Part shown: positions 3,017 through 28,004 of the stretch, piece by piece | Layout: each line of letters opens with the position of its first letter | How positions within the stretch are numbered: the first letter of the stretch is position 1 | DNA from: Streptococcus sp. DD10 | GTDB lineage: Bacteria; Bacillota; Bacilli; Lactobacillales; Streptococcaceae | Length of the DNA stretch: 42,418 nucleotides | Assembly: GCF_001578805.1 (NCBI RefSeq) | Contig: NZ_KQ969158.1 | Span: forward strand, 28,490-70,907 | Reading direction: 5' to 3' | The notes under the pieces: generated by a model | Seen by the model: the letters and a program-made list of their open reading frames with translations, nothing else | Databases searched by the model: none | What the model was told of the DNA's origin: nothing | Made by a program: the position numbers and the translations under genes

Positions 3017-3487
3017 ATGGCAACATACGGATTTTTAGATGTTTTACAGGAAGAGTTGGACAAGAACTTTCCCTTTGACTATGAGATTAGCTGGGATAAG
3101 CGCAACCATGCGGTAGAAGTGAGTTTTCTATTGGAAGCGCAAAACGCTACAGGTGTGGAGATGGTGGATGAAGACGGAGAGGTTTCGTCAGACGATATCC
3201 TCTTTGAGGAAGCAGTCCTTTTCTACAATCCTGCCAAGTCAACAGTCAATGAGGAAGATTATTTAACAGTCATCCCTTACCTGCCTAAAAAAGGATTTTC
3301 TCGTGAGTTTTTAGCTTATTTTGCTCTTTTTCTCAAAGATACAGCCGAGGTTGGGCTGGATGCGCTCATGGACTTTTTGGAAGACCCAGAAGCAGAGGAA
3401 TTTGTCATGGAATGGAACCAAGAAGTCTTTGAAGAAGGGAAAGCAGGATTGGAAGAGGGAGAATTTTACCCTTATCCGAGGTATTAG
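3017..3487 (+). CDS. DUF3013 family protein
   Basis: 156-aa acidic cytoplasmic protein of unknown function, conserved in streptococci and recognised by its start (MATYGFLDVLQEELDKNF) and acidic C-terminus ending YPYPRY. There is no signal peptide or membrane segment. The ATG at 3017 follows AGAGGA. In the pneumococcal relatives I remember, it lies close to prmA. Here a large restriction-modification gene begins 26 nt after its stop, so the foreign gene is probably read from this gene's promoter. Confidence 0.85.
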   Translation: MATYGFLDVLQEELDKNFPFDYEISWDKRNHAVEVSFLLEAQNATGVEMVDEDGEVSSDDILFEEAVLFYNPAKSTVNEEDYLTVIPYLPKKGFSREFLAYFALFLKDTAEVGLDALMDFLEDPEAEEFVMEWNQEVFEEGKAGLEEGEFYPYPRY

Positions 3488-3513
3488 GGAACAAGAAATA
3501 TGAGAGGGAAAAA

Positions 3514-6500
3514 TTGATAACTAAAAAGAATTTTAAACAAGTTTTAGAAAGCCTGGAATTTAACGAGGATAAAACGGATTACTATATTCACCGTAAAAGT
3601 GGATTGGCGGTTGATTTTGCCCAAGAAAAACTGATTTACCCCGAAGAACAAGACTTTATCGTCAACGAACGCCAAACCTGCAATTTTGCCGCGCCCGAAA
3701 ACTTTGTCGTGTTTGAATGCGTGCATCGTTTGCTGGAAAAAGGCTATCCGCCGCAAAAAATAGAATTGGAAAAACGCTGGACGTTGGGACATTCGCAAAA
3801 AAGCGGACGCGCCGATATTTCCGTCTTTTTAGACGACGACAAAACCCAGCTTTTTATGATTGTTGAATGCAAAACCGCCGGCGCAGAATACAACAAAGCC
3901 TTGAAAATCTTAAAAGAAGACGGCGGTCAGCTGTTCAGCTATTGGCAACAGGACAAATCCACCCAATGCCTGTCGCTTTATGCCTCCGATTTTTCAGACG
4001 GCGAAGTCAGCTACAAAAACGACATTGTCTTGTGCCAAGACGACGCCAACTTGGTCAAACTCGCCGAAAAAGACGACAGCATCAAACTTTACCAATCCGC
4101 CTATAACGCCGAGCAACTGCACGAAGTTTGGACGGAAACCTATTCGCAGCAACTGCATGAAAACCTGATTTTCGGGCAAGATGCCGTTGCTTTGGATTTA
4201 AACCGTCAGCCCTTACGCAAAAAAGACCTCAAAGCCTTTTCCACAGACGACAAAATCATCAACCGTTTTGAAGAAATCTTGCGCCACAACGCCGTTTCCG
4301 ACAAAGAAAACGCCTTCAACCGCCTGATCGCGCTCTTTATCTGTAAATTGGTGGACGAAGAAAAAGACGATGATCAAGAAGTCGATTTTCAATATAAAGT
4401 CGGCACTGACACCTACGAAACGCTGCAAGACCGTTTGCAACAGCTCTATCAAATCGGCATGGAAAAATTCATGAAAGAAGAAATTTTCTATGTGCATAAC
4501 GATTACGCCGAGCATCTCTTTAAAGATTTAAATATCGACACCCGAGAACATGCCAAAAACATGTTGCAAGACACCATCCGCAAGCTGAAGTTTTACACCA
4601 ACAACGACTTTTCCTTTAAAGACGTGCATAACGAAGAACTCTTTTTGCAAAACGGCAAAATCGTGATGGAAATGGTGCAACTGTTTGAAAAATACCGCAT
4701 CAGTTACGCTTCCAAACATCAGTTTTTGGGCGACATGTTTGAACAGTTGCTAAATAAAGGCTTCAAGCAAAACGAAGGGCAATTTTTCACGCCCAGCCCG
4801 ATTACGCGCTTTATTTGGGATTGCCTGCCTTTACACAATATCGTGGAAAACTTGGGCGGTGCTTATCCGAAAGTGATTGATTACGCTTGTGGTTCGGGGC
4901 ATTTCTTGACCGAAGCGGTGGAAGCCATCAACGCCGTCAAGCCGTCTGAAAATAACGATTGGACGCAGGAGAGCATTTTTGGCATAGAAAAAGATTACCG
5001 CTTGGCGCGTGTGTCGCAAGTGTCGATGTTTATGAATGGCGCGGGCAACAGCAAGATTATTTTTGGCGATGGGCTGGACAACGGCAAAGGCATTGCCAAC
5101 GAAGCCTTTGACATTCTGGTTGCCAATCCGCCTTATTCCGTGTCTGCCTTTAAATCGCATTTAAAGCTGAAAAACAACGAATTGGACTTGCTGGAAACCA
5201 TCAGCAACAACGGTGGCGAGATTGAAGTCTTATTCTGCGAACGCATTGCCCAGCTGCTCAAATCGGGCGGCGTGGGCGCGGTGATTTTGCCCTCCAGCAT
5301 TTTAAGCAACGACAGCGGTAGCTACACCGCCGCCCGAGAACTGCTGCTAAATCGCTTCCGTTTCCGTGCGATCGTGCTTTTCGGCTCCAAAACCTTTGGC
5401 GCAACGGGTACCAACACCGCCGTGTTATTCTTCGAAAAAATCAGCTATCCGCCGCAACAAGACCGTTTGGCACGCGACCAAGCCGAAGCCGTGTTTAAGC
5501 AATTTCCGCTGCAACACCAAAAAGACCAAGCGGTACTCAACGCCTATTTAGAGACCATCGGCATGCCGTCTGAACTCTACGACAAAATCCGCCAACAAAG
5601 CTTAACTTGGGCGGAATTGTCCGAAAGCGACAACGAATATTTGGCGGCGCATTTCAAGGCCTTGCAAAGCAGCATGGCATTAAGCAAAACCGAAGAGAAA
5701 AATCATCCCGATGAAAAGGCGCAAAGTGCGGTCAAATTACGCAAGTTTTTTGCAAAATTCCAAGCCATGGAAACCGACAAAATCGCCTTGTTTGCCCTGC
5801 TTTACGGCGAACAAACCTTAATCATCACCGCACCGGGCGACAACGCCAAGCAAAAAGCCTTTTTGGGCTACGACTGGAGCAACCGCAAAGGCGCGGAGGG
5901 GATACAAATCCAACAGGCAGGCGGCAAACTCTACAACGACGCCGACCGCTTCGCCCCCGACACCCTCGCCGCTTGCGTGCGCAGTATGTTTGAACAGCAA
6001 ACCGCCAGCATTACAGGCGAGCAAGCTGACTACGCCAAAGTGGTGAATACGGCGGATATGATCGACTTCCAAGCGGTGGGCTTTAATCGGGCGATACGCA
6101 CCAGCGTGCAGAAAAAAGTGGAGATAGTGAGCAAGTTTGACGTTGTTCTGTTAGAAGATTTTCCAACAGAAATTAGAAAAGGAAAATCTATTACTGCTAA
6201 AAATACCATTTCTGGAGATTATAAAGTTGTTGCCGGCGGTAAAGATTTTGCTTATACACATAATGAATTTAATCGGGCAGAAAACACCATTACCATTAGT
6301 GCATCTGGGGCAAATGCTGGCTTTGTTAATTTTTGGGCAGAGAAAATTTTTGCGTCAGACTGTACAACTGTTAGGGGCGAAAATGATATAAGCAGCAAAT
6401 ATATTTATACCTATTTGCAGAGTATTCAAGAAAATATCTACGATTTAGCTCGAGGCGCAGCGCAACCGCACGTTTATCCTGATGATATTAAGCGTTTGCC

Positions 6501-7143
6501 AATTCCACGCCCACCATTTGAAATCCAAACCCAGATTGTGGAAGCCTGCGAAAAACTTGATGAAGAATACAATCAAACCCGAATGAAGATTGAGGAATAT
6601 CGGGCGGAGATTGAATCCTTCTTCACCGATATTCAAGGAGAAACCAAACGACTTGATGAGGTAATGGATTTACGTGCAGGCGATTTTGTTCGGGCAAATG
6701 AAATTCAAGATAATTTTGCTGATGGATTATTTCCTTGTTATGGCGGAAATGGATTGCGTGGCTATGTCAAAACAATGACCAATGAAGGCGAATATAGCTT
6801 AATTGGGCGACAAGGCGCACTGTGTGGCAATGTGCATTTTGTAAAAGGACAATTCCATGCAACTGAACACGCGCTTGTGGTTTATCCTAAAATTCAAATT
6901 GAATCGTATTGGTTGTTTTATTTACTTAAATCAATGAATTTAAACCAATATTCCACTGGTACAGCTCAGCCGGGATTGTCCGTTAAAAACTTAGTTGGAA
7001 TAAAGATGACGATAATTCCATTTTCCGAACAGGAAAAAGTCGTAAGAAAAATCAAAGAACTGGAAGCTCAAATCACCGAATGCCAACAAAAACTGGACAG
7101 TATGGCAGATGCCAAAAAAGCGGTGTTGGATAAATATTTGTAA
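3514..7143 (+). CDS. Type IIG-like restriction-modification enzyme (nuclease, N6-adenine methylase and two recognition domains in one chain)
   Basis: 1209-aa protein that would cut and methylate DNA. Order of domains: an N-terminal PD-(D/E)xK nuclease (GRADISVFL with D101, then MIVECKT with E118 and K120); a helical HsdM-like linker; an HsdM-type N6-adenine methylase with GQFFTPSPI, motif I DYACGSGHF (456-464) and motif IV NPPY (538-541); two HsdS-like target recognition domains (about 880-1000 and 1050-1170), each followed by a coiled coil and containing GAAQP or GTAQPGLS. Two such domains predict a bipartite target. The frame is intact. The start is TTG at 3514 after GAGAGGG; an ATG just upstream is closed by a stop. 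From about 3540 to 6120 base and codon use is richer in GC (GCC, CGC, AAC) than the neighbours; from 6121 it becomes AT-rich. Three neisserial and one Haemophilus uptake sequence lie inside. Transfer from a Gram-negative donor is inferred. Confidence 0.9.
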   Translation: MITKKNFKQVLESLEFNEDKTDYYIHRKSGLAVDFAQEKLIYPEEQDFIVNERQTCNFAAPENFVVFECVHRLLEKGYPPQKIELEKRWTLGHSQKSGRADISVFLDDDKTQLFMIVECKTAGAEYNKALKILKEDGGQLFSYWQQDKSTQCLSLYASDFSDGEVSYKNDIVLCQDDANLVKLAEKDDSIKLYQSAYNAEQLHEVWTETYSQQLHENLIFGQDAVALDLNRQPLRKKDLKAFSTDDKIINRFEEILRHNAVSDKENAFNRLIALFICKLVDEEKDDDQEVDFQYKVGTDTYETLQDRLQQLYQIGMEKFMKEEIFYVHNDYAEHLFKDLNIDTREHAKNMLQDTIRKLKFYTNNDFSFKDVHNEELFLQNGKIVMEMVQLFEKYRISYASKHQFLGDMFEQLLNKGFKQNEGQFFTPSPITRFIWDCLPLHNIVENLGGAYPKVIDYACGSGHFLTEAVEAINAVKPSENNDWTQESIFGIEKDYRLARVSQVSMFMNGAGNSKIIFGDGLDNGKGIANEAFDILVANPPYSVSAFKSHLKLKNNELDLLETISNNGGEIEVLFCERIAQLLKSGGVGAVILPSSILSNDSGSYTAARELLLNRFRFRAIVLFGSKTFGATGTNTAVLFFEKISYPPQQDRLARDQAEAVFKQFPLQHQKDQAVLNAYLETIGMPSELYDKIRQQSLTWAELSESDNEYLAAHFKALQSSMALSKTEEKNHPDEKAQSAVKLRKFFAKFQAMETDKIALFALLYGEQTLIITAPGDNAKQKAFLGYDWSNRKGAEGIQIQQAGGKLYNDADRFAPDTLAACVRSMFEQQTASITGEQADYAKVVNTADMIDFQAVGFNRAIRTSVQKKVEIVSKFDVVLLEDFPTEIRKGKSITAKNTISGDYKVVAGGKDFAYTHNEFNRAENTITISASGANAGFVNFWAEKIFASDCTTVRGENDISSKYIYTYLQSIQENIYDLARGAAQPHVYPDDIKRLPIPRPPFEIQTQIVEACEKLDEEYNQTRMKIEEYRAEIESFFTDIQGETKRLDEVMDLRAGDFVRANEIQDNFADGLFPCYGGNGLRGYVKTMTNEGEYSLIGRQGALCGNVHFVKGQFHATEHALVVYPKIQIESYWLFYLLKSMNLNQYSTGTAQPGLSVKNLVGIKMTIIPFSEQEKVVRKIKELEAQITECQQKLDSMADAKKAVLDKYL
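3993..4002 (-). other. Neisserial DNA uptake sequence (DUS10), reverse orientation
   Basis: TTCAGACGGC is the exact reverse complement of GCCGTCTGAA, the 10-mer uptake signal scattered through Neisseria genomes. It lies within the coding sequence of the restriction-modification gene. Confidence 0.8.
4941..4950 (+). other. Neisserial DNA uptake sequence (DUS10)
   Basis: Exact GCCGTCTGAA, within the methylase domain just after motif I. The two preceding bases are AA rather than the AT of the 12-mer form. Confidence 0.8.
5563..5574 (+). other. Neisserial DNA uptake sequence, full 12-mer (AT-DUS)
   Basis: Exact ATGCCGTCTGAA, the extended form taken up most efficiently by pathogenic Neisseria. 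It is the third exact core within 1.6 kb. Confidence 0.85.
5724..5732 (+). other. Haemophilus-type uptake signal sequence (USS)
   Basis: Exact AAGTGCGGT core, preceded by A and followed by C, an A/T-rich stretch (AAATTA) and a second T-rich tract one helical turn further. This fits the extended Haemophilus influenzae USS consensus. Confidence 0.7.
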
Positions 7144-7170
7144 GTTTTTTATACAGAAAGAAGAAACTAT

Positions 7171-8121
7171 ATGGAAACATGGCAAGAGTTAAAAGTTACA
7201 GTGAAGCGTGAGGGGGAGGAACTGGTTTCCAATCTCTTGATTGAGCTGGGAGCGCAAGGTGTTGCGATTGAAGACAGTATGGACTATGTGGGAAATGTCG
7301 ATCGTTTCGGTGAGATTTTCCCAGAGGTCGAGCAGCAGGAAGAAATCATAGTGACCGCCTACTACCCTGAAACGGTGGATGTAGTGGCAGTTGAGGCAGA
7401 TTTGCAGGCTCGCCTAGCAGAATTGACAGATTTTATGGATTTGGGAGAGGTCAAAATGGGTACGACTGCTCTTTCTGAGGAAGACTGGGCAGACAATTGG
7501 AAGAAATACTATGAGCCAGCTCGTGTCACTCATGACTTGACCATCGTGCCGTCTTGGACAGACTATGAGGCGACTGCGGGAGAAAAGATTATCAAGCTAG
7601 ATCCTGGTATGGCCTTTGGGACAGGGACTCATCCAACCACTAAAATGAGCCTTTTTGCCTTGGAGCAGGTCCTTCGGGGTGGCGAGACAGTGCTCGATGT
7701 GGGAACTGGTTCAGGTGTCCTCTCCATTGCTAGCTCTCTTCTGGGTGCCAAGGAAATTTTCGCTTACGACCTGGATGATGTAGCTGTTCGGGTGGCCCAA
7801 GAAAATATTGAGCTCAATCCGGGTATGGAAAATATCCAGGTAGCAGCAGGCGATTTGCTTAAAGGTGTGGACATCGAGGCAGATGTGGTTGTGGCTAATA
7901 TCTTGGCGGATATTCTCATTCATCTGACAGAGGATGCTTATCGCTTGGTCAAGGATGAAGGCTACCTCATCATGAGTGGGATTATCAAGGACAAGTGGGA
8001 CATGGTGCGAGAGTCGGCTGAGTCAGCTGGATTCTTCCTTGAAACTCACATGATTCAAGGGGAATGGAATGCCTGTGTCTTTAAGAAAACCAAGGATATG
8101 TCCGGTGTGATTGGAGGCTAA
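7171..8121 (+). CDS. prmA: Ribosomal protein L11 methyltransferase
   Basis: 316-aa SAM-dependent enzyme that trimethylates ribosomal protein L11. It has the family N-terminus [11 protein letters not shown], the substrate loop [18 protein letters not shown] motif [15 protein letters not shown], acidic motif II AYDLDD and [10 protein letters not shown]. Length matches the family. The ATG at 7171 follows a modest RBS (GAAAGAAG). It ends one base before rsmE, whose RBS lies inside its last codons, so the two are translationally coupled. The restriction-modification gene ends 27 nt upstream without a terminator. Confidence 0.95.
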
Positions 8122-17605: not shown

Positions 17606-18094
17606 ATGAAGCGAATGGCTTATGTGCTATTAGTGGGTTTGTTGGTTTGTATGACTGCCTGTTCTAGCCAAGCTCAAAACAAAACAAACGAAGTAAACCA
17701 ATCAGAAGCACAAGCGAGTACAAATCAGCCTCAAATGAACATCGAAGAAATTGTAGAGGGAAACTATGCTAGTGTAGCTGGTATTTGGGTCAGCGATAGT
17801 GGAGAACGATTGGTCTTCAATGCATCAGGTCTTGCGACTAGCAACTATCAGCCAGAAGCAGCTACCTTGACTTATTTTGGAACAGCCGAGATGATAGTTG
17901 TTGGTTCAGGCACCTTAAAAAGTACTTTTCTGCTCGAGATGATACCTGCAGGAGTAACCATTCCAGAGCAGGTGGATGATGCAGGAAATCTCCTTTTTCA
18001 AGACAATTCTGATGCAAGCAAGGATCGCTTGTGGACCGGGACAGGTAGTTATCCTTTCTTAGAAACAGGTCATTTTTTTTATCGTGTAGAATAA
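17606..18094 (+). CDS. Lipoprotein with DUF6287-like domain
   Basis: 162-aa exported lipoprotein. The N-terminus MKRMAYVLLVGLLVCMTACSS has a type II signal peptide with lipobox MTAC. A Ser/Gln/Asn-rich linker follows, then a domain beginning MNIEEIVEGNYASVAGIWV that resembles DUF6287, found in many streptococcal lipoproteins. Role unknown; it is attached to the outer face of the membrane. The ATG at 17606 follows AAAGGA. The gene is monocistronic, ends at a bidirectional terminator and is convergent with the GH92 gene. Confidence 0.8.
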   Translation: MKRMAYVLLVGLLVCMTACSSQAQNKTNEVNQSEAQASTNQPQMNIEEIVEGNYASVAGIWVSDSGERLVFNASGLATSNYQPEAATLTYFGTAEMIVVGSGTLKSTFLLEMIPAGVTIPEQVDDAGNLLFQDNSDASKDRLWTGTGSYPFLETGHFFYRVE

Positions 18095-27618: not shown

Positions 27619-27750
27619 GCTTCCCGCGAAATTAAAACGTACTTTTAAAGGTAACAATAGCAGCAATAAGATTTATACGCTGACCTAGCAGTATTTCGTT
27701 TTGCTGGCAATCTAAAAACTTCATTTCATTAGATAAAAAATATATGAAAA

Positions 27751-28004
27751 TGAACTGCACCCCGAAAGTTAGACAGAAAAAATCTAACTTTTGGGGTGTT
27801 TTTATTATGAAATTGACTTATAAAGATAAAGTTCAGATCTATGAACTTAGAAAACAAGGATATAGCTTAGAGCAACTTTCAAATAAATTTGGGATAAACA
27901 ATTCTAATCTTAGGTACATGATTAAATTGATTGATTGTTACGGAATAAAGCTCCTGATAGACAGAAAATGGTTTATTGCCAACCGGAGAGTAATTGGACT
28001 CTAA
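27751..28004 (+). mobile_element. IS3-family (IS150-group) left end with truncated orfA
   Basis: The stretch begins TGAACTGCACCCCGAAAGTT, an IS3-type terminal repeat. It forms a hairpin (27760-27773 with 27783-27796) followed by T-rich sequence, which blocks incoming transcription. The orfA start at ATG 27807 encodes MKLTYKDKVQIYELRKQGYS and a helix-turn-helix through MIKLIDCYG, as in pneumococcal IS3-type orfA. After about residue 46 the sequence no longer matches and stops at 28002-28004. The rest of orfA, all of orfB and the right end are absent. Confidence 0.75.

Follow-up and report, generated by a model that had tools for sequence, protein, structure and literature searches.

A restriction-modification gene at positions 3514 to 7143 of a 42,418-nucleotide stretch of Streptococcus sp. 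DD10 (contig NZ_KQ969158.1; the whole stretch is called the window below) is very likely a gene body from Neisseria joined to an exchanged recognition end and recently acquired by the streptococcus, probably by transformation. In the course of events that we propose, the nuclease-methyltransferase body would have spent enough time in a population of Neisseria to take on both the DNA uptake sequence (DUS) and the codon use of that genus, and the specificity end would have been swapped for an AT-rich one whose first target recognition domain (TRD1) is common to Pasteurellaceae. Passage through Pasteurellaceae is also suggested by one extended Haemophilus-type uptake signal sequence (USS) in the body. 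The mosaic would later have entered the streptococcus and displaced the native genes between a DUF3013 gene and prmA nearly from start codon to stop codon, and it would therefore sit behind a host-like ribosome site.

An earlier note on this DNA had placed three exact neisserial DUS cores, one of them within a full 12-mer, together with one USS core in this gene, and the motif scan located every one of them at the same positions (Table 1). The exact core GCCGTCTGAA occurred three times in the whole window, compared with 0.07 expected, and none of 100 shuffles contained three or more copies. All three lay within the open reading frame (ORF) of the gene, in agreement with the impression in the note that the flanking genes carried none. 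The host assembly (2,189,983 bases in 84 contigs, one genome) contained four DUS cores, including these three, while a reversed control pattern occurred twice. The Poisson probability of at least three DUS in the gene was ∼8e-10 at the density in the rest of the host, where a single copy was present, and 6e-8 if the four bases are taken as equally frequent. The note had also judged these copies too many for chance, and a chance origin of the cluster was rejected on the basis of the shuffles and the whole-genome counts. The note had recognized that a similar density of the two motifs across the host would speak against its proposal, but neither was so spread; the 2.19-Mb genome held only the four DUS cores and five USS cores. 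Moreover, the DUS density of the gene body (1.14 per kb) was neisserial, given 0.95 per kb in Neisseria gonorrhoeae (143 in 150 kb), while Pasteurellaceae DNA yielded 1 in 185 kb. As a wider control, the scan was extended to 369 genomes drawn from the class to which Escherichia coli belongs; DUS cores were present in 318 of them, numbering 27 at most. In the genome with this maximum (G726), 25 of the 27 cores were on the same strand, unlike in the other draws, and they are perhaps a repeat family. No Neisseria genome was recognized by these motif counts, by the opening sequence of the first contig in 100 of the draws (only N in four), or by ClpB in 80 genomes (71 with a match, at 71% identity or less).

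Codon use revealed a mosaic gene rather than a uniform unit, with the break located near position 6140. Codon tables were derived from mechanical ORFs of at least 200 amino acids from three sources, namely, Neisseria, Pasteurellaceae (eight DNA stretches, including the genes L104, L105, and L106), and the host. Neisseria was the best fit in all 43 fifty-codon segments starting between 3514 and 6034, by a narrow margin in the first one, and in none of the 15 segments from start 6094 on; the first ∼40 codons (to ∼3633) were AT-rich and ambiguous in affinity. The Neisseria-minus-host log-likelihood per codon was +0.281 for the body, compared with −0.463 to −0.004 for 51 host ORFs, while the highest value among 117 Pasteurellaceae ORFs was +0.053 (the L106 gene itself, described below), followed by −0.006. 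The same score for 82 gonococcal ORFs ranged from −0.359 to +0.503 (median, +0.345), with 4 of the 82 within the host range and 27 below the body. The codon use of the body is Neisseria-like, outside the ranges of the 51 host and 117 Pasteurellaceae ORFs, and we hold with high confidence that the body would be of neisserial origin. These non-native codons and the neisserial DUS density bear out the suggestion of the earlier note that a foreign restriction-modification gene had reached a streptococcus from another phylum. Its further picture, a gene bearing both uptake signals, stood with regard to the neisserial style of the body and the signs of contact with Pasteurellaceae but not with regard to transfer as a single uniform unit.

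The sign of Pasteurellaceae in the specificity end comes from TRD1, which is 82% identical in DNA to the Pasteurellaceae genes L104 and L105 (353 to 357 bases) and 75% identical in protein to L104. The body matched the genes sharing this TRD1 (L104, L105, and one from Gemella) in short pieces only. The second domain, TRD2, had no close DNA homologue in the Pasteurellaceae genes compared. A Pasteurellaceae-type source of TRD1 is likely, judging from these identities, and as a sign of Pasteurellaceae TRD1 appears equal in strength to the single USS.

The USS core AAGTGCGGT occurred once in the window, and 22 of 100 shuffles contained at least one copy. By itself, the core is weak evidence because the host has five copies, one of them in this gene, compared with nine for a reversed control. 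However, the A/T flanks, said in the earlier note to fit the extended consensus, strengthened this evidence, as they fit real Pasteurellaceae USS. In a flank model built from 111 USS sites in Pasteurellaceae DNA, the flanks at 5724 scored 10.23 bits and exceeded 86 of the 111 real sites (91 when each was held out of its own model), and no other of the 7,198 positions in the gene equaled this site. No USS core was present in 150 kb of N. gonorrhoeae, while a 19-base match to the extended USS was found elsewhere in the N. gonorrhoeae chromosome; a neisserial host can therefore hold a USS. Two 2.17-Mb N. gonorrhoeae records in the plasmid collection (NZ_CP119140.1 and NZ_CP119142.1) look like chromosomes, and each contains at least one such 19-base match. 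Because the one USS lies in the body, outside the AT-rich specificity end (6139 to 7140), which has none, the USS and TRD1 are not markers of the same event.

The chromosomal slot bears on how the gene arrived. The gene lies 32 kb inside a contig of 282,696 bases. A prmA match was present in 46 other genomes, and 15 of these relatives (L060 to L074) were examined; every one had between one and four other genes separating DUF3013 from prmA, and a gene with a Nudix box (recognized by eye) was among them each time. Gene content of this interval varied among the 15, with spacers of 575 to 2,829 bases, and within the genus the slot therefore appears to be a hotspot of replacement. The host is without the Nudix-type gene of the slot; a search that covered this slot gene alone returned only a 30% match elsewhere in the host. 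Direct or inverted repeats of at least 14 bases were found neither within either junction stretch nor linking the two sides, and mobile-element insertion was rejected for this reason. The arrangement would be that of a native segment replaced, as by double crossover, rather than of an inserted element, which makes transformation the likeliest route, and we lean toward transformation as the last step.

Among streptococci, 28 of 284 genomes had a match at 1e-20, and only three, the host included, matched from the N terminus. The two other genes of this kind were 37% identical (with an internal TAA) and 41% identical (up to residue 696), while the remaining 25 matches were confined to the methyltransferase or a target recognition domain (TRD). 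A tree of the body placed these two streptococcal genes with Gemella and the Pasteurellaceae genes on a separate branch. A native gene, with streptococcal closest relatives and native codons, was the other outcome that the earlier note had set against its proposal, and it was rejected because the two streptococcal relatives are only 37 to 41% identical and belong to another clade and the codon use of the body is non-native. In Bacillota at large, the host was the only one of 299 draws to match the PADLOC model PDLC03624 (REase_MTase_IIG) at 1e-60, and in Pseudomonadota, 1 of 398 draws gave a relative at 1e-80 (44% identity over residues 30 to 642). Scans of viral contigs found only L077/L078, which are one contig, and L079. 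No phage matched at 1e-20, and the 43 plasmid-collection records matching at 1e-30 all had less than 60% identity, with none covering 80%; a phage or plasmid gene was rejected on these grounds.

One Pasteurellaceae Type IIG gene, L106 (1501 to 5406; genome G1057), provides an independent example of the build seen in the window gene. Its first 2,700 bases scored better with the Neisseria codon table (−0.964) than with the Pasteurellaceae table (−1.048), and its AT-rich end scored better with the Pasteurellaceae table (−0.980 versus −1.168). All five DUS-type hits (at four places) in a 20-kb stretch fell inside the gene, compared with one hit in the next 20 kb; they comprise one AT-DUS and, at three further places, Kingella/Simonsiella-type DUS. 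L106 thus shares with the window gene the enzyme type, DUS-type motifs within the gene, a Neisseria-leaning body, and an AT-rich end, but it belongs to another clade (32 to 40% identical), has mostly Kingella/Simonsiella-type DUS, resides in a Gram-negative bacterium, and shows a smaller codon contrast.

Several observations weigh against a neisserial body with a Pasteurellaceae-type end. Over the body, the viral contig L077 is the nearest relative (58% over residues 1 to 880, with the C-terminal end encoded by a second ORF), and the body tree joined the window gene, L077, and Ruminococcus torques (L005; 42 to 45% identity over the body) at 100/100. None of the 43 plasmid-collection matches was a Neisseria homologue, in a collection whose two N. 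gonorrhoeae chromosomes were the Neisseria genomes covered, and the Neisseria codon table was built from 150 kb of N. gonorrhoeae and one DUS-rich viral contig. In addition, a truncated Pasteurellaceae relative, L107, has Pasteurellaceae-like codons and is without a USS at the aligned site. With respect to the specificity end, TRD1 is also 77% identical in DNA to that of Gemella (L006), and the codon score of 6139 to 7140 was nearly equal for Pasteurellaceae (−0.979) and the host (−0.999), with no fit to Neisseria; a Bacillota source of this part is therefore possible.

The alternative that survives best is a sub-case of the explanation preferred here, in which the streptococcus obtained the gene from a Pasteurellaceae strain that already held the neisserial body and the exchanged end, and so had no direct contact with Neisseria DNA. 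L106 shows that such a build, with its DUS-type hits, occurs in this family, and the USS and the TRD1 that the window gene carries agree with such a donor. However, relatives at E ≤ 1e-60 were found in only 4 of 140 genomes of the family (that of genome G858, assigned to Pasteurellaceae from its USS density), where the longest match was 45% over residues 1 to 1041 and TRD1 alone reached 67% in genome G1038. The sole close body relative there is L107 (genome G1000, 1 to 2961), which is AT-rich and survives from residue 645 on, adjoining a transposase gene (IS3-like by eye), with the N-terminal half absent from the upstream sequence examined. L107 is the closest relative of the window gene in residues 645 to 872 (47% over 645 to 761 and 71% over 762 to 872, compared with 30% and 53% for the next relative), and at the aligned DUS site it reads ATGCCATCTGAA, one base from the 12-mer ATGCCGTCTGAA. 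Taken together, a Pasteurellaceae donor is possible but rather doubtful.

It is also conceivable, although unlikely, that the USS at 5724 arose by chance and the recognition end came from a Gram-positive pool, with only Neisseria and Bacillota involved. A single 9-mer core is concerned, for which simple arithmetic predicts ∼0.03 copies in the gene and the host density predicts 0.007, and the L107 site without a USS, the Gemella TRD1, and the undiscriminating codon use of the end fit such an account, whereas the rank of the flanks among real USS, unmatched elsewhere in the gene, and the greater closeness of TRD1 to Pasteurellaceae than to Gemella argue against it. An assembly chimera, in which neisserial DNA of a mixed culture was misjoined to a streptococcal contig, is very unlikely. 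The contamination estimate of 1.19 and the 84 contigs leave room for one, but stray Neisseria contigs would bring ∼1 DUS per kb whereas the assembly has one outside the gene, and host genes lie only 26 bases (left) and 27 bases (right) away from the ORF, with the Nudix-type gene of the slot gone. Least probable of all is a body from another Bacillota with coincidental DUS and Neisseria-like codons, since the L077 and L005 copies that group with the body have no DUS even at one mismatch and have codon use nearest the streptococcal table, and the probability of three exact DUS by chance is as low as given above.

With the neisserial origin of the body thus preferred, the product of the gene can be considered. 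The ORF is uninterrupted, and its product resembles a single-chain restriction-modification enzyme of Type IIG (IIB-like) with the AloI/TstI layout and seems to be intact, having an N-terminal PD-(D/E)XK nuclease, an N6-adenine methyltransferase, and two C-terminal TRDs in 1,209 amino acids. PDLC03624 matched at 1.5e-278 (best stretch, residues 1 to 1046), and Pfam recognized HSDR_N_2 (6.5e-07), N6_Mtase (1.7e-32), and Methylase_S in two stretches. The nuclease residues D101, E118, and K120 were invariant in all five rows of alignment A3, the window protein included, and methyltransferase motif I was invariant in three rows except at S461. Structure models were of low confidence and used as support only; the best Foldseek match of the nuclease model (pLDDT, 64) was BsaXI (6.5e-06), and the best structural matches of the model of residues 848 to 1209 (pLDDT, 61) were HsdS proteins. 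The enzyme would be expected to recognize a bipartite target, methylating an adenine in it, and to cleave DNA that lacks this modification. The coordinates of these features are collected in Table 1.

Table 1. Features of the restriction-modification gene and its junctions (window positions)
Feature	Position	Strand	Basis or remark
Left flank, DUF3013 gene	3017..3487	+	Pfam; host codon use
Left junction, 26 bases from DUF3013 stop to TTG start	3488..3513	+	AGAGGG resembles a ribosome site (by eye)
Restriction-modification gene, putative single-chain Type IIG (Type IIB-like), 1209 aa, TTG start	3514..7143	+	ORF, Pfam, PADLOC
Body (nuclease and methyltransferase), Neisseria codon use	3514..6138	+	Codon log-likelihood in fifty-codon segments
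PD-(D/E)XK-type nuclease motif GRAD...VECK (D101, E118, K120)	3814..3873	+	Alignment A3
Neisserial DUS core GCCGTCTGAA, exact	3993..4002	-	Motif scan; + strand there encodes FSDG
Methyltransferase motif I, DYACGSGHF	4879..4905	+	Alignment of 3 rows
Neisserial DUS core GCCGTCTGAA, exact	4941..4950	+	Motif scan; encodes KPSE
Methyltransferase motif IV, NPPY	5125..5136	+	Pfam and alignment; invariant in 3 rows
AT-DUS, full 12-mer ATGCCGTCTGAA	5563..5574 (10-mer core 5565..5574)	+	Motif scan; encodes MPSE
Haemophilus-type USS with A/T flanks of the extended consensus	5723..5752 (core 5724..5732)	+	Motif scan and flank scoring
TRD1 block, low GC at third codon positions	6154..6506	+	DNA identity to L104, L105, L006
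TRD2 region, AT-rich	6649..7140	+	Codon use; 156 bases match S-subunit genes of E. coli plasmids at 73% identity
Right junction, 27 bases from ORF stop to prmA	7144..7170	+	Differs from the spacers of the 15 relatives shown
Right flank, prmA	7171..8121	+	Pfam; host codon use

Two further features of the window were observed. At 588 to 1067, remnants of two transposases (Y1_Tnp and DDE_3) overlap on opposite strands, next to a gene for an MgsA/RarA-type ATPase (1630 to 2919), and a short stretch at ∼27749 to 27953 is 82 to 95% identical to seven Streptococcus plasmid records, two of which carry an IS3 transposase annotation. These seven were all of the plasmid-collection records with a match to positions 18000 to 42000, and they agree with the gene content in pointing to a streptococcal host.

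The dialects of DUS, and the role of uptake sequences as a barrier confining transformation to a group, have been described (PMC3630211), and the genome evolution of DUS has also been treated (PMC2397512). Among the open-licence PMC papers listed in our searches, none dealt with DUS-bearing genes in Streptococcus. In the present case, such sequences would instead label, in a forensic sense, DNA that had moved out of its group and into another phylum. DUS and USS islands in Gram-positive genomes would offer a direct, countable measure of cross-phylum transfer among oral and nasopharyngeal neighbors, a kind of transfer that trees alone orient poorly. Moreover, a restriction-modification gene alters the phages and DNA accepted by its new host. 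Quite possibly, although we advance this with some hesitation, Type IIG genes circulate among competent Neisseriaceae, Pasteurellaceae, and oral streptococci as a shared pool, exchanging recognition domains along the way and acquiring, in every host that uses an uptake tag, the tag of that host, and the remaining tags would be a travel record readable across phyla and into tagless hosts.

Among known systems, the modA genes of Neisseria and Haemophilus influenzae offer a parallel, since their recognition domains are exchanged between the two groups and, according to the passages of PMC3311624 used here, neisserial uptake sequences flank the domain; Haemophilus uptake sequences are cited there from an earlier study, and the modA12 domain is lower in GC. 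The likeness to the window gene thus extends over a restriction-modification gene, uptake sequences of both groups, recognition-domain exchange, and a low-GC domain (in modA12), whereas modA encodes a Type III methyltransferase in Gram-negative hosts and the window gene is of putative Type IIG and carried by a Streptococcus. In terms of enzyme architecture, the AloI/CjeI layout, as outlined in parts of PMC3874165 and, for TstI, of PMC4027205, is one chain of ∼1,250 amino acids with a nuclease, a methyltransferase, and two C-terminal TRDs, and the window protein, at 1,209 amino acids, has the same domain order. This comparison is of the described layout and not of sequences, and the window gene differs in being a cross-family mosaic in a streptococcus. 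RM.BsaXI (Type IIB; PDB 8w0p, 8w2p, and 8w2q) was the top structural match of the nuclease part and also the top sequence match in the PDB (8.7e-31), but the specificity part of BsaXI is a separate chain (8w0p_C), and the identity is 17 to 19%.

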